This document shows, piece by piece, positions 5,955 through 12,865 of a stretch of 63,380 nucleotides of DNA. Position numbers and translations under genes: made by a program. Under the pieces are notes generated by a model, which saw only the letters and a list, made by a program, of their open reading frames with translations, made no database searches and was not told where the DNA came from. Positions within the stretch are counted from its first letter, which is position 1, and each line of letters starts with the position of its first letter. This DNA is from Chlorobiaceae bacterium (lineage in GTDB: Bacteria > Bacteroidota > Chlorobiia > Chlorobiales > Chlorobiaceae): positions 1,860 to 65,239 of the forward strand of contig JAAXWX010000005.1 of the NCBI GenBank assembly GCA_013334755.1. The letters are read 5' to 3'.

Positions 5955-6653
5955 ATGGTTCATCATTCATCAGCCAACATCTTGATCGCTCCAGAACGGT
6001 TCCGGAAAATACAATACATGCTGAATCACCGTCAGCCTGACCTGACAGTGATCATGGATAATGTCAACAAGGCTCACAACCTTTCGGCTATTATTCGAAG
6101 CTGTGATGGTGTCGGCATCAACGAAATCCACGCTGTTTCATACCGTAAATACATCCATGCCGAACAGAATGCCGCGGCAGGTTCAAGCAAATGGCTGACC
6201 CTGAACCTCTATTCCGATATAGCAACGGCCTACGGAAAGGTATCGGAGTGCGGCATGCAGATCCTGGTTGCTACAAACAAGGAAGGCTCTCTGGATTTCA
6301 GGAGTGTTGACTATACCATTCCGACCGCGATTGTGGTGGGTGCCGAGTGGGATGGTATATCAGAAGAAGCCGTCAAGGGGTCAGACCATGCCATTACGGT
6401 GCCTATGCTTGGCATGGTAGAATCACTGAATGTCTCTGTAGCTACAGCAGTCATACTCTTTGAAGCACAGCGTCAGAGAGAAGAAAAAGGAATGTACAGC
6501 ACACCTCGTCTCGATCCGGAATGCTATGAACATATGCTCTTTGAATATACATACCCTCGTCTGAGCCGGGAACTCCGTAAAAAAGGATCGCCCTATCCGC
6601 CGCTTGATGCAGAAGGAGGACTATGCCTTCCAAAAAAATTTGCCGGACAGTAA
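5955..6653 (+). CDS. trmH: tRNA (guanosine-2'-O)-methyltransferase TrmH
   Basis: SpoU-family SAM-dependent enzyme that methylates the ribose of a guanosine in the tRNA D-loop (Gm18). Length is 232 residues, normal for TrmH. Motif 1 is NVNKAHNLSAIIRSCD (catalytic Arg near residue 48), motif 2 is VVGAEWDGIS near 127-136, and motif 3 is LNVSVATAVILFE with Asn159. Together these form the trefoil-knot SAM site. A C-terminal tail rich in Arg/Lys follows, as in TrmH. Monocistronic: the flanking genes are on the minus strand. Its last codons overlap the terminator of the opposite gene. Confidence 0.9.
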   Translation: MVHHSSANILIAPERFRKIQYMLNHRQPDLTVIMDNVNKAHNLSAIIRSCDGVGINEIHAVSYRKYIHAEQNAAAGSSKWLTLNLYSDIATAYGKVSECGMQILVATNKEGSLDFRSVDYTIPTAIVVGAEWDGISEEAVKGSDHAITVPMLGMVESLNVSVATAVILFEAQRQREEKGMYSTPRLDPECYEHMLFEYTYPRLSRELRKKGSPYPPLDAEGGLCLPKKFAGQ

Positions 6654-6681: not shown

Positions 6682-7752
6682 TCAGTAGATGAGGATGCGG
6701 GGCAATTTTTTAGCCTGATCGATCCATGATTTAACCTGGTCACTTGAAGGTAGCTGCTGAACCAGCTTTTTCTGTTTGTTGACCTCCTGCATTTTCACAT
6801 AGAGATTCGATGGATTCCGCTGTGCAAGTTCTGGAACAGTATCAACTCCGGATGCTTCAAGCAGTTCAGACCAGGAGAATCCTACCCCTTTAATCCGGGC
6901 CAGATCAGCACGGTTAAGGAGTGTAAGGATATCACTCTCACCGATTCCGGTTGCACCGGAAAGCTCCTTCCGACCGATTCTGTCCTTGCCTCGTTCAAGA
7001 AGGTTGTCAAAACTTTTCACGCCTGCTTTGATCAGTTTGAGAGCGTGCGCTTCTGCAATGCCTTCAAGAGCAGCAAGATCAACTGCTGCAGGTTGCTGAG
7101 TTTCTTTAACCTGAACAGGAATGACCGGCTGAATTGCAGGGGCAATCACTTTCAGTACCACCGGCTCAAGTTTCATTGACGTCTGCCCGGAGGTCAGCAA
7201 AGGGATGGGCAAGGGCAATGATCCAAGCACACCCATGAGCTGCTCCCTGAACGGAACCATTTGCGATGCTGAGGAGAGTGCGAGTTGTACAGCCGCGCCT
7301 AAAGATTCCAGAAGATCTCCCGGAAGATCTTTTCCGTTCATCTCCCCTCTGACTATTCTCCCTGCAAGGTTTTGAACGCCGGGAATAATCTGTGAAGCAA
7401 CATCCTTTCCCATGACTGCGCCATAGGCAAAGAGGGCGAAAGGATTGCTGAACAGCAGTCTTCGAACCTCTTCAGGACGCGAAAGCACCTTAAGGGTACC
7501 CTCTTTTTCAATGGTAGCCTGACAGGCAAGACGTCCGCCGCTCAGGATCTGACGTTCGGATAAAAATGCCCTTTCAACGTCCGAGAGCGGAGAAAGGCAT
7601 TCACTCCCTTCCTGAACCGTCACATAGCAGGCCTGGCAGACACCATGACCACCGCACACATAGCCGACATGGCTATGGTTATGACGTGCAGCCTTCCCGA
7701 GTGTCTGACCAGCAAAGGCCTCGCAGGAAAGATCATTAATAAGAAGATTCAT
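6682..7752 (-). CDS. Chlorosome envelope-type 2Fe-2S ferredoxin protein with C-terminal DUF4332-like domain
   Basis: 356-residue protein with an N-terminal adrenodoxin/plant-type 2Fe-2S domain: Cys33, Cys39, Cys42 and Cys77 in the C-x5-C-x2-C ... C pattern (VCGGHGVCQACYV, RLACQATI). The region around 95-150 (LLFSNPFALFAYGAVMGKD) is alanine-rich and hydrophobic, as in the chlorosome envelope proteins CsmI, CsmJ and CsmX. From about residue 225 to the end the sequence resembles DUF4332/helix-hairpin-helix repeats (LEGIAEAHALKLIKAGVKSF, IKGVGFSWSELLEASGV). As I remember them, CsmI/J/X are about 220-245 residues, so the tail is extra. Likely role: electron transfer at the chlorosome surface, with redox control of energy transfer. 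The exact Csm class is unsure, so no symbol is given. Confidence 0.75.
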   Translation of the reverse strand: MNLLINDLSCEAFAGQTLGKAARHNHSHVGYVCGGHGVCQACYVTVQEGSECLSPLSDVERAFLSERQILSGGRLACQATIEKEGTLKVLSRPEEVRRLLFSNPFALFAYGAVMGKDVASQIIPGVQNLAGRIVRGEMNGKDLPGDLLESLGAAVQLALSSASQMVPFREQLMGVLGSLPLPIPLLTSGQTSMKLEPVVLKVIAPAIQPVIPVQVKETQQPAAVDLAALEGIAEAHALKLIKAGVKSFDNLLERGKDRIGRKELSGATGIGESDILTLLNRADLARIKGVGFSWSELLEASGVDTVPELAQRNPSNLYVKMQEVNKQKKLVQQLPSSDQVKSWIDQAKKLPRILIY

Positions 7753-7857: not shown

Positions 7858-8400
7858 TCACGGAATCGGAAGCTCCCGGTAGCTGTATATGAAAGCAATG
7901 GTTCCAATCTTTTCGTTCAGCCCCATTACCGGAACAACGAACATGCTTTTGCCTTCCGGTACAGCATAGGAAACAGGTACCTGAACTCCAAGTTTCATCC
8001 GGGGATATCGCGTGGAAAAAAAGCTCCCCTGCAGCTTTCGATCAGTCGATACCTTGATGATACCGGAAGGATCAACAAGCATAATCAAGCCAAACCCTTT
8101 TCTTTTGATCAGTTCGTTAAAATATTCGTCAATCTGATCATAATTGGCCCGCATCAACTCTTTGCGAACCGACCAGGCAAGAGGAAGTGCGAAGAGCTGG
8201 ATGTCCTGTCGCTGAATATCCACAGAACCGGACTCTGCACTTGCAGCAAGCTTTTGCAGCTCCTGCTCACCCTGATAGCGAGTAAAAAGAATACCACCTG
8301 CAAGCAGAGCAATAACGAGAATAATCGTGATCAGAAGAAATCGTTTCCAGAACGATGACTTTGGTCGCAGGGTTTCCTGAACATCATTGCTGCTATTCAT
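7858..8400 (-). CDS. Membrane-anchored protein with a PDC/Cache-like extracytoplasmic domain
   Basis: 180-residue protein I cannot assign to a named family. A cytoplasmic N-terminus of about 20 residues is followed by one strong membrane helix (FLLITIILVIALLAGGILF, residues 22-40) and then a soluble region. The soluble region reads like half of a PDC/Cache or PAS-type sensor fold: LIMLVDPSGIIKVSTD near 104-118 and MFVVPVMGLNEKIGTIAFIY near the end. There is no kinase, GGDEF or methyl-accepting output domain, so it would be a stand-alone sensor or a subunit. It lies between ybeY (13 bases away, same strand) and the chlorosome ferredoxin gene. Confidence 0.7.
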   Translation of the reverse strand: MNSSNDVQETLRPKSSFWKRFLLITIILVIALLAGGILFTRYQGEQELQKLAASAESGSVDIQRQDIQLFALPLAWSVRKELMRANYDQIDEYFNELIKRKGFGLIMLVDPSGIIKVSTDRKLQGSFFSTRYPRMKLGVQVPVSYAVPEGKSMFVVPVMGLNEKIGTIAFIYSYRELPIP

Positions 8401-8413
8401 TGGTCAAGAGTGA

Positions 8414-8836
8414 TTATGAGGTTCCCGCACTGAAGCGGTCGAGATAAAATGCCTCTTTTTCCTGCATCAAGTTATGATCATCGGGTGACTGATCGTCATA
8501 ACCGATAAGATGAAGTGCTGAATGTAAGGTAACACGCAGGAGCTCCTGCTGAAAATCAACCGAAAATCTGGCCGAGTTTTCCTTGACTACATCGAGCGAG
8601 ATATAAAACTCGCCATCAATGTCACTCCCCTTGTTGTACCGGAAGGTAATGGTATCGGTAGGATAGTCATGGCTGAGAAACTCACGGTTGATACGCTGTA
8701 TCAATTTGTTTCCGCAGTAGACACCAACGATGGAGTCAACAGTACAGCCCTCATTTTCCAGAACCAGAAGAACAGCTTTCTCAAGAATCTGTTCGGGAAT
8801 CTCCCTTTTGGTGGTGTTATGGATTTGCAACGTCAT
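8414..8836 (-). CDS. ybeY: Endoribonuclease YbeY (rRNA maturation factor)
   Basis: Single-strand endoribonuclease of 16S rRNA 3'-end maturation and ribosome quality control, 140 residues from the ATG at 8836. An in-frame ATG at 8869 is the longer alternative; neither has a good Shine-Dalgarno sequence. The family core is present: NREFLSHDYPTDTITF, then LHSALHLIGYDDQSPDDH. Two zinc-ligand histidines of the H-x3-H-x5-H motif are kept (residues 105 and 109), but the third position is Asp rather than His. The start lies inside the end of hflX (overlap about 20 bases), so translation is coupled. Confidence 0.85.
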   Translation of the reverse strand: MTLQIHNTTKREIPEQILEKAVLLVLENEGCTVDSIVGVYCGNKLIQRINREFLSHDYPTDTITFRYNKGSDIDGEFYISLDVVKENSARFSVDFQQELLRVTLHSALHLIGYDDQSPDDHNLMQEKEAFYLDRFSAGTS

Positions 8837-10121
8837 CGTGCATGATTTGTGATGAGTTGATAAGGGCATCGATATGTTTCAGCTGATTTTTACGCACCCT
8901 GAAGGTCAGCTCAACCTCTTCATCGACATAATTCTTGTCGATAACTTCAGTGTTCTCATACAGGTAAGTGATCAGTTTATAGTTGGAGACATGCACGCTG
9001 ATTTTGCGCTCGATGTAATCACGGGCAATCTGTTGACCGATTATCTCTTTGAGAAGGGAAATATTGATTCCCCGTCTGGCAGATATAAATACGGCATCAG
9101 GATACTTCTCACTGATTTCCCTCAGTAAAGAGGGATCTTCAAGAGCATCAATCTTGTTGAAAACTTCGATGATGTTGTCATGCTCAACGCCAATTTCCTT
9201 AAGCGTATCACGCACAACCACCATCTGCTCTTCAAAACCAGGGTGGCTGATGTCTATAACATGGATGAGAAAATCTGCCTGAAGCACCTCGTCAAGAGTC
9301 GATTTAAAACTCTCGACAAGCGTATGCGGGAGTTTTCGGATAAAACCAACAGTATCCGAGAGAAGAACCAGCTTGTTGATGTTAAGTTCCAGACGGCGGG
9401 TTTTGGTATCGAGCGTAGCAAAAAGCCTGTTTTCGGCAAAAGCTTCAGCCTCGGGGCATAGGGCATTCATGAGGGTGGACTTGCCCGCATTGGTATAACC
9501 AACAAGAGAGACCCTCGGCACTGTCTGCCGCCCGCGAGTCTGTGTATCATGCTGCAGCGACACATCACGAAGCTTTTTTTTCAGCAGGGATATCCTGTTG
9601 CGAACAAGCCGGCGATCGGTCTCGATCTGGGTTTCACCGGGACCCTTGTTGCCAATACCACCCTTCTGTTTTGAAAGGTGCGTCCACTGTCCGGAAAGAC
9701 GGGGAAGCATGTATTCAAGCTGGGCAAGCTCAACCTGCATCTTTGCCTGGGCAGATTGGGCTCTTATGGCAAAAATCTGCAGGATAAGACCTGTTCGATC
9801 TATCACCTTGCATTCAAGTGATTTCTCAAGGTTTCTTGCCTGGGCAGGTGAAAGATCGTCATCAAAAATGACGATATCGATCTCCTTCTCCTTGACAAAC
9901 AAAACAAGTTCATCAACTTTACCCTTTCCAATACAGTAGGCAGGATCACGCAGTTTTTTGTCCTGTATGAATGATTCAACAACATCAGCTCCGGCGGTAT
10001 CTGCAAGAAAAGTCAACTCATCGAGATATTCCTCAACGAGAGATCTGGGTGTTTCGGGGGGGGAACAGAGGCCGACAAGAATAGCCTTTTCCCTTCTATT
10101 TTCAGGGGTAACAGTATTCAA
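8817..10121 (-). CDS. hflX: GTPase HflX
   Basis: Ribosome-associated GTPase that splits stalled or heat-damaged 70S ribosomes; 434 residues. The N-terminal HflX domain (VDELVLFVKEKEIDIVIFDDDLSPAQARNLEK, described here by its key DDDLSPAQ) is followed by the linker signature GPGETQIETDRR. The G domain has G1 GYTNAGKST, G3 DTVGFIRKLPH and G4 NKID. The start at 10121 is a TTG, as no in-frame ATG gives the full N-terminal domain. The gene overlaps ybeY downstream. The pair hflX-ybeY is a plausible ribosome-quality unit. Confidence 0.92.
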   Translation of the reverse strand: MNTVTPENRREKAILVGLCSPPETPRSLVEEYLDELTFLADTAGADVVESFIQDKKLRDPAYCIGKGKVDELVLFVKEKEIDIVIFDDDLSPAQARNLEKSLECKVIDRTGLILQIFAIRAQSAQAKMQVELAQLEYMLPRLSGQWTHLSKQKGGIGNKGPGETQIETDRRLVRNRISLLKKKLRDVSLQHDTQTRGRQTVPRVSLVGYTNAGKSTLMNALCPEAEAFAENRLFATLDTKTRRLELNINKLVLLSDTVGFIRKLPHTLVESFKSTLDEVLQADFLIHVIDISHPGFEEQMVVVRDTLKEIGVEHDNIIEVFNKIDALEDPSLLREISEKYPDAVFISARRGINISLLKEIIGQQIARDYIERKISVHVSNYKLITYLYENTEVIDKNYVDEEVELTFRVRKNQLKHIDALINSSQIMHDDVANP

Positions 10122-10331
10122 AAGAGCAGTAGTAAATTACGTAAGTATTTGAATGATAAAGAGCTGCAACTTGGTATGTTGCTATATTACAACCATTGTT
10201 TTATCTTGCCAACTCTTTATTGTAAACATTTCCGGTCTTTAAAAAGTTACACATTTTTGCTTTCACCCCATACCGCTATGGGTAAAAAAACTGTGATGAC
10301 CAGAACAGGCTAATATAAGCGCCCATGGCAG

Positions 10332-11264
10332 ATGAATCACAACGATAACGAAAACAATGCGGGGCCTGAGACCGAAAAGCTGATAACGCTTGAAAATGCC
10401 TATACGTACTGTCGGCAGATTTCAAAAGTTCATGCAAAAACCTTCTACCTTGCAAGCATGTTTCTGCCCAGAAAGCAGCAGAAACCGATTTTCGCCATCT
10501 ACGCATTGCTGCGTACGGTTGATGATATCGTTGATCTCGCAGAAGTCAAACTGACAAACGGCCTTATTACCAGTGAAGAGATCCAGAGAATGCTTGCGGA
10601 CTGGAAATCCAAGCTTCAGGCATGCTACGCCGGAAAAGTTGACAACGATCCGATCATGATGGCCTGGCACGATACCCTGAAAAGCTATTCGATCCCGATA
10701 GCACTCCCGCTTGACCTGATGGACGGCGTTGCCATGGATATCGAGTTCAAGCCGTTCGAAACCTTCGATGAGCTCTATGTTTACTGCTACAAGGTCGCCG
10801 CGGTCGTCGGGCTGATGACATCCGAAATTTTCGGCTACAGTGACAAAAAAGCACTTGAACATGCCATAGAGCTTGGCATTGCCATGCAGTTGACCAACAT
10901 TCTTCGCGATGTCGGAGAAGATGTTGATCGTGGCAGAATCTATCTTCCGCTTGAGGATCTTAGGCGTTTCAACTATTCGAGTGAAGAGCTGATGCAGAAA
11001 ACGATAAACGATAACTTCATCAATCTCATGAAGTTTCAGATTGAGCGGGCAAGAAGCTACTACCGGTCGTCTGACAAAGGCATCCCGATGCTTGAAAAGC
11101 AAAGCCGGTTTGGTGTCGCTATCAGCAGCATCAACTACAGCAATATTTTAACAGCAATCGAAAAAAACAACTACGATGTTTTTTCAAAAAGAGCCTATCG
11201 CTCTTTTTTTCAAAAGATCAGCACCATTCCTTACATCTGGTATAAAACCCTTGGATCTTCCTGA
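10332..11264 (+). CDS. crtB: Phytoene synthase (squalene/phytoene synthase family)
   Basis: Condenses two geranylgeranyl diphosphates to phytoene, the first committed step of carotenoid synthesis (chlorobactene/isorenieratene type in green sulfur bacteria). 310 residues. Both Mg-diphosphate motifs are present: DDIVD at residues 64-68 and DVGED at 193-197 within [32 protein letters not shown] near 151-162 matches the family's YCYxVAG.VG helix. The ATG at 10332 gives normal length, though no strong Shine-Dalgarno sequence precedes it. A squalene synthase cannot be fully excluded, but phytoene synthase fits a phototroph better. lysS follows 65 bases downstream. Confidence 0.82.
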
Positions 11265-11329
11265 CGGACTGGAATATTCAAACTGATTATATTTTTTCAC
11301 ATACAGAATTCGAGAGGCAGACGACCATC

Positions 11330-12865
11330 ATGCATAAAGAAAACGATCCGAACAAGAATATCCCCGAACAGCCAGCACAGATTTCGCTGAACGACCAGAT
11401 GCAACGCCGTCTTGAGGAGCGTCAGCACATCATGGATGCCGGTGTCAATCCATATCCATCCCATTTCGACGTCAGCCACGCTTCCCTGGAAATTATCGGA
11501 AATTTTGAGGAAGAGGCAAAAACACCCGTTTCTGTTGCCGGAAGGATCATGACCATCAGAAAGATGGGAAAAGCCTCTTTTTTCCATCTGCAGGATTCAG
11601 CAGGCCGAATCCAGATTTACATGAAAAAGGACGATGTAGGCGAAACAACCTACAACACCTTCAAACTGCTCGACATCGGCGATATTGTCGGGGTCAGGGG
11701 TTATACCTTTAAAACCAGAACCGGAGAAATTTCAGTCCATGCTGAAACGCTTGAACTGCTTACCAAATCGCTGCGCCCGATACCTGTCGCCAAGGAAAAG
11801 GAGGTTGATGGGGAGAAGGTTGTGTTTGATGCTTTCAGCGACAAGGAGCTTCGCTACCGCCAGCGTTATGTGGATCTGATTGTCAATCCGGAAGTCAAGC
11901 AGACCTTTATCAAGCGGAGTGCCATCGTCTCGTTCATGCGGCAGTTCTTTTCAGGAAAAGGGTGGCTTGAGGTTGAAACACCAATCCTGCAACCTATTTA
12001 CGGTGGAGCTGCCGCCCGTCCGTTTACCACACATCACAACGCGCTCGATATGCAGCTCTACCTGCGTATCGCCAATGAACTCTACCTCAAACGGCTTATC
12101 GTCGGTGGCTTTGACGGGGTTTTCGAATTTGCCAAGGATTTCCGCAACGAGGGCATCGACCGTTTCCATAATCCGGAATTCACCCAGGTTGAGCTCTATG
12201 TCGCCTACAAGGATTACAACTGGATGATGAAAACCGTGGAGGAGCTTCTCTTCGAAACTGCGATACAGGTCAACAAGAGTGAAGTCACCCTCTTTCTCGG
12301 CAATGAGATCAGCCTTAAACCCCCGTTCCGGCGCCTGAGCATTATCGACGCGATTGCCGAATACACCGGACAGAATATCAGGGGGAAATCCGAAGAAGAA
12401 CTTCGCTTTACTGCAAAGGATCTCGGCCTTGAGCTTGATCCCAAAATCAGCAGCGGCAAGATTATTGATGAAATTTTCGGCGAATTTGTGGAGCCAAAAC
12501 TCATTCAGCCGACCTTTATCATCGACTACCCGACAGAGATGTCGCCCCTTGCCAAGGAGCACCCATCCCAGCCTGGTATCGTTGAACGTTTCGAGCTCAT
12601 CATCGGAGGTAAGGAGGTCTGCAACTCCTTCTCTGAACTGAACGACCCGGTCATACAGCGTGAACGGCTTGAATCGCAGGCAAAATTAAGGCAGCGTGGC
12701 GACGAAGAGGCTATGATTGTCGACGATGACTTCCTCCGCGCCATCGAATACGGTATGCCGCCCTGCGCTGGCATCGGCATCGGCATTGATCGGCTTGTTA
12801 TGATCCTCACCGGTCAGGACTCAATCAGGGACGTCATCTTCTTCCCTCATTTGAAACCGGAATAG
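11330..12865 (+). CDS. lysS: Lysyl-tRNA synthetase, class II
   Basis: Charges tRNA-Lys; 511 residues, the usual length. An N-terminal OB-fold ([21 protein letters not shown], key motif [12 protein letters not shown]) precedes the class II core. Motif 2 is [16 protein letters not shown] and motif 3 is [13 protein letters not shown], with [14 protein letters not shown] at the C-terminus, as in bacterial LysS. A hydrophilic leader of about 20 residues precedes the OB-fold. It is in the same orientation as crtB upstream and is probably independently expressed. Confidence 0.96.

Follow-up and report, generated by a model that had tools for sequence, protein, structure and literature searches.

Predicted fusion of a CsmI-type chlorosome ferredoxin to a DUF4332 domain in one clade of a Chlorobiaceae genus

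In C. tepidum, CsmI takes part in the redox control of energy transfer by the chlorosome. It consists of a Fer2 domain, a helical middle and a Leu-Pro-rich C-terminus; CsmJ and CsmX follow the same plan of a Fer2 domain and a helical C-terminal part. The envelope proteins of the chlorosome are few – ten have been identified in C. tepidum – and the published mass of C. tepidum CsmI is 25.9 kDa (PMC3175400). In the literature covered on DUF4332 and on CsmI, CsmJ and the chlorosome, nothing bearing on a fusion of the two was found.

The 63,380-nucleotide stretch of Chlorobiaceae DNA analysed here (the window) carries a gene in which a protein of this plan continues into a DUF4332 domain. The open reading frame has 356 codons and an ATG start, and its coordinates include the stop codon:

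6682–7752, minus strand: csmI-DUF4332 fusion gene, 356 amino acids, predicted 38.3 kDa (open reading frame, Pfam and mass)
7510–7725, minus strand: Fer2 [2Fe-2S] domain, residues 10–81 (Pfam, 38.9 bits)
7522–7656, minus strand: four predicted cluster ligand codons, Cys33 (7654–7656), Cys39 (7636–7638), Cys42 (7627–7629) and Cys77 (7522–7524) (residue positions)
7219–7476, minus strand: helical middle, residues 93–178, CsmI-type envelope region (predicted structure)
7096–7203, minus strand: disordered Pro/Val-rich linker, residues 184–219 (pLDDT below 50)
6703–7065, minus strand: DUF4332 (PF14229), residues 230–350, tandem helix-hairpin-helix (Pfam, predicted fold)

The original prediction was of a chlorosome-type ferredoxin fused to a DUF4332/helix-hairpin-helix tail, and both domains were recovered by Pfam. 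The search of the C-terminus gave a match over the full DUF4332 model (1–122 of 122) at 144.8 bits, against a gathering cut-off of 23.2 (E 1.8e-42), and the profile scored 147.7 bits when run on the DNA; HHH_5 stayed under its cut-off on the full-length protein. Cysteines are found at residues 10, 33, 39, 42, 52 and 77. The four previously named as cluster ligands stand where they were placed, have the adrenodoxin-type spacing C33-x5-C39-x2-C42-x34-C77, and are invariant in an alignment of 19 fused proteins. The middle of the protein had been called alanine-rich and is only moderately so, with 14% alanine in residues 105–170. As to possible internal starts from which the tail might be translated separately, in-frame ATG and GTG codons occur up to residue 203, with none between 203 and 240. 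A promoter scan returned no promoter-like sites and one terminator-like site, no excess over shuffled sequences.

The full-length model has a ferredoxin fold, helices to residue 178 (92–102, 104–135, 143–165 and 169–178), a disordered linker and a well-folded tail. Its pLDDT is ca. 84–91 for residues 93–130 and ca. 55–74 for the subsequent helices. When modelled alone, the tail is all-helical with a mean pLDDT of 91.4; the prediction is of a tandem helix-hairpin-helix domain that folds independently. Compared with PDB folds, the whole model matches E. coli Fdx first, and also plant-type ferredoxins and adrenodoxin.

The ferredoxin part of the protein is that of a CsmI orthologue. In a tree of Fer2 domains, in which the outgroup branches are long, the window protein clusters with CsmI genes, separately from the remaining Csm ferredoxin genes. 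One relative genome (G014), which we take to be that of C. tepidum TLS, encodes an unfused orthologue of the ferredoxin part (244 amino acids, 25.9 kDa) with 59% identity to the window protein over residues 1–222. The two share the Fer2 domain, the cysteine spacing and the helical middle, and are orthologous by tree and locus. This orthologue has the mass published for CsmI. The proteins differ at the end: C. tepidum CsmI stops after its Leu-Pro-rich C-terminus, and the window protein runs through a short linker into 130 residues of DUF4332.

The gene order around csmI is also conserved, and the neighbouring genes in the window are:

5955–6653, plus strand: trmH, convergent downstream neighbour (256.7 bits, cut-off 227)
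7858–8400, minus strand: upstream neighbour, a 180-amino-acid protein with no Pfam family and a single apparent membrane helix at its N-terminus
8414–8869, minus strand: ybeY (name from sequence reading)
8817–10121, minus strand: hflX (name from sequence reading)
10332–11264, plus strand: phytoene/squalene-synthase-like (crtB-like) gene (name from sequence reading)
11330–12865, plus strand: lysS (name from sequence reading)

The conserved context spans 8414–12865, with the order taken from gene-order clustering: hflX, the crtB-like gene and lysS lie near csmI in both genera, whether it is fused or unfused. The gene for the 180-amino-acid protein is syntenic in eight fused genomes, an association by position. 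This gene occupies the interval between ybeY and the fused csmI in the window, and six other fused genomes (L110–L114 and L117) have a DUF4412 lipoprotein gene in that interval.

Assignment to the CsmI/J/X type stands with an amendment: the tree, the locus order and the size of the protein all identify a CsmI orthologue, not a CsmX. Identity with CsmX was ruled out by the tree, by the locus, and by a separate pair of Csm-type ferredoxin genes lying side by side on another contig of the same genome (G000:C2; 22.7 and 24.3 kDa). The proteins of this CsmJ/CsmX-like pair are ca. 45% identical to the window protein over the N-terminal part and lack DUF4332.

CsmI and DUF4332 are joined in a single open frame in 21 of the 65 species genomes sampled from the genus, about a third, and in none of the 21 sister-genus genomes sampled. 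Within one whole clade, CsmI normally carries the tail. The expectation that other Csm proteins lack it holds for unfused sister-genus CsmI, including that of the genome taken to be C. tepidum, and for the family at large, but not within this clade. The same uninterrupted frame recurs in 20 of the other genus genomes, which rules out an assembly or frame artefact. Contigs with named records supplied 52 loci. Fused genes make up 21 of these, all in records titled as metagenome-assembled genomes; three of the loci counted as fused (L073, L076 and L095) were so classed on length and C-terminus, though their automatic label was otherwise. Two distinct fused csmI genes were seen in one assembly (G366), which may be a mixed bin, as it is rated 7% contaminated, and also as a pair (L058/L066) in MAG JAAXXY.

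In all, the DUF4332 tail is present in 24 of the 65 genomes: the 21 with the fusion and three more. In one of these (G005) the CsmI and tail halves lie at contig ends, and another (G350) has a free-standing copy only. The third (G271; L179, 5000–5230) keeps only a tail remnant of ca. 76 codons at the csmI locus, beside a DUF4412 lipoprotein gene, so that csmI appears to have been lost. No CsmI match at E 1e-45 was found in 32 of the 65 genomes, many of them 98–100% complete, and CsmI seems to be dispensable across many species of the genus.

The trees point to one origin of the fusion. Among 44 DUF4332 domains, 20 fused tails form one side of a branch with a support of 100/100, recovered in 200 of 200 bootstrap trees. 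The Fer2 clade that contains the window protein (96/85) has 24 rows and includes all 22 fused rows. Only two rows in it have no tail: L077, a gene cut by a contig end with its tail on another contig of that genome, and L107, where csmI is truncated and the tail lost. The monophyly of the fused tails and the placement of the fused Fer2 domains in a single clade show that the fusion took place once, in the common ancestor of one clade of the genus, with csmI at its ancestral locus; several independent fusions were ruled out by the grouping of the fused tails.

Across 22 fused genes, the median pairwise dN/dS was 0.12 for Fer2, 0.24 for the helices, 0.34 for the linker region (residues 166–221, the highest of the four) and 0.23 for the tail, which indicates that the tail is maintained under purifying selection. 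Every unfused CsmI examined has 4–16 LP or IP dipeptides, while 15 of 21 fused proteins have three or fewer (Mann-Whitney p 0.0009, from related sequences and hence not an independent test). The Leu-Pro segment is reduced in the window protein as well. Replacement of this segment by the tail is not general, because six fused proteins retain a long one.

Free-standing DUF4332 proteins (PF14229, ca. 134 amino acids) consist of the same domain as the window tail over its full length. They differ in being unfused, in belonging to another clade of the tree and in having an intact first hairpin more often. The GhG motif of hairpin 1 is present in 12 of 12 free-standing proteins from Bacteroidota and 7 of 12 from Chlorobiaceae, but in only 1 of the 23 fused tails with data; that of hairpin 2 is present in 19 of 24 fused tails. 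HHH_5 scores are also lower in fused tails (median 30.8 bits, against 36.8 in free-standing proteins; p 0.04, with overlapping ranges). A free-standing copy is found in 7 of 21 sister-genus genomes.

Helix-hairpin-helix repeats often bind DNA, and a link to DNA was one of the roles first proposed for the tail. That the tail binds DNA or RNA, connecting the redox state of the chlorosome with the nucleoid or with gene regulation, would fit its tandem repeats, the basic character of many fused tails (pI 9.2 for the window tail), and a weak, non-significant resemblance of its fold to segments of DNA polymerase iota, Hel308 and RadA. The last of these came from a PDB search with the tail alone in which nothing was significant (best E 0.09) and NusA was also among the weak matches. 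Helix-hairpin-helix domains such as the NusA C-terminal repeats, the RadA N-domain and HHH_5 resemble the tail as modules, by weak profile or fold similarity, but no PDB structure matches it significantly over the full domain, and a sequence search with the window tail for a solved DUF4332 structure gave no significant match. Nor do the features expected of DNA-binding repeats, GhG in both hairpins and a conserved positive charge, hold up. The window tail has GIA in hairpin 1 and GVG in hairpin 2, the first-hairpin glycine is lost in all fused tails but one, and the net charge runs from −4 to +7 (pI 5.4–9.9) within one orthologous clade. An envelope protein also has no evident route to DNA. 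Conserved DNA binding is disfavoured by the variable charge and the loss of the hairpin-1 motif; on the sequences it is poorly supported, and we consider this role very unlikely. The same evidence makes protein contact the likelier role. The first helix-hairpin-helix of the tail has weak profile similarity to the NusA C-terminal repeat, and the structures of that repeat include one protein-protein complex, with SuhB.

Other explanations differ in whether the tail has a function at all, and where. It could be a passenger, a chance fusion that was tolerated and whose function is limited to folding stability. The frequent absence of CsmI itself from the genus is in keeping with this, as are the loss of the tail in L107 and of CsmI in G271, since these indicate that the tail or CsmI is dispensable in some lineages. 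Constraint on the tail is, however, like that on the middle helices and stronger than that on the linker, and the tail is full-length in 21 genomes; a passenger is an unlikely explanation. It is somewhat less probable still that the fused protein no longer sits on the chlorosome and works as a soluble or membrane ferredoxin of another pathway. One sub-clade lacks the later envelope helices and the Leu-Pro segment, but fused and unfused CsmI share strong conservation of the Fer2 domain and the long helix 104–135, and their genes occupy the same locus. Pairing of the tail with its own genome's free-standing DUF4332 protein, bringing the function of that protein to the chlorosome, would be suggested by the window genome and four others that carry both forms (53% identical in the window genome). 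Most fused genomes have no free-standing copy, ten of them being at least 97% complete, so pairing is not a general role, and we regard it as improbable.

The reading that we favour, with confidence about evenly balanced, is that the tail serves for protein contact or tethering, as a module acquired in one ancestral fusion by a CsmI of the chlorosome envelope that otherwise functions normally. In that fusion, the 3' end of the ancestral csmI gained a DUF4332 domain akin to the free-standing 134-amino-acid proteins. By analogy with C. tepidum CsmI, the product most likely still resides in the chlorosome envelope and carries a [2Fe-2S] cluster, and its ferredoxin domain would trade electrons with quinones of the chlorosome or with soluble carriers, helping to set redox-dependent quenching. 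The tail, on its flexible linker, most likely makes a CsmI-CsmI or CsmI-partner contact at the chlorosome surface, perhaps partly replacing the Leu-Pro-rich segment that is eroded in most fused forms. It is doubtful, to about the same degree as a departure from the chlorosome, that the tail goes further and makes CsmI a redox-responsive docking protein that joins the chlorosome to one particular partner – the reaction-centre membrane, a quinone-reducing enzyme or a second chlorosome – as a mode of attachment or control absent in C. tepidum.

A stable domain gain of single origin on a redox member of the Csm proteins offers a natural comparison of fused and unfused forms, one that bears on how the chlorosome holds CsmI and on the partners of CsmI. 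The fusion also gives DUF4332, a family of unknown function, a defined cellular setting. The neighbourhoods of free-standing DUF4332 genes in Chlorobiaceae and Bacteroidota gave no clear functional link. In Chlorobiaceae these genes are often near a YidB-family gene (L131, L134, L135, L137, L139 and L178; ca. 30 bases apart in L139), and in a few Bacteroidota BON-LysM genes are nearby.

The window genome also encodes CsmA/CsmE-type proteins. Three intact Bac_chlorC (CsmA/CsmE-like) copies are found in it, and elsewhere (G000:C39:10052-10518; L183, L184) there is a relic of such a gene, with the two halves of the domain in different frames ca. 230 bases apart and a stray ORF between them.
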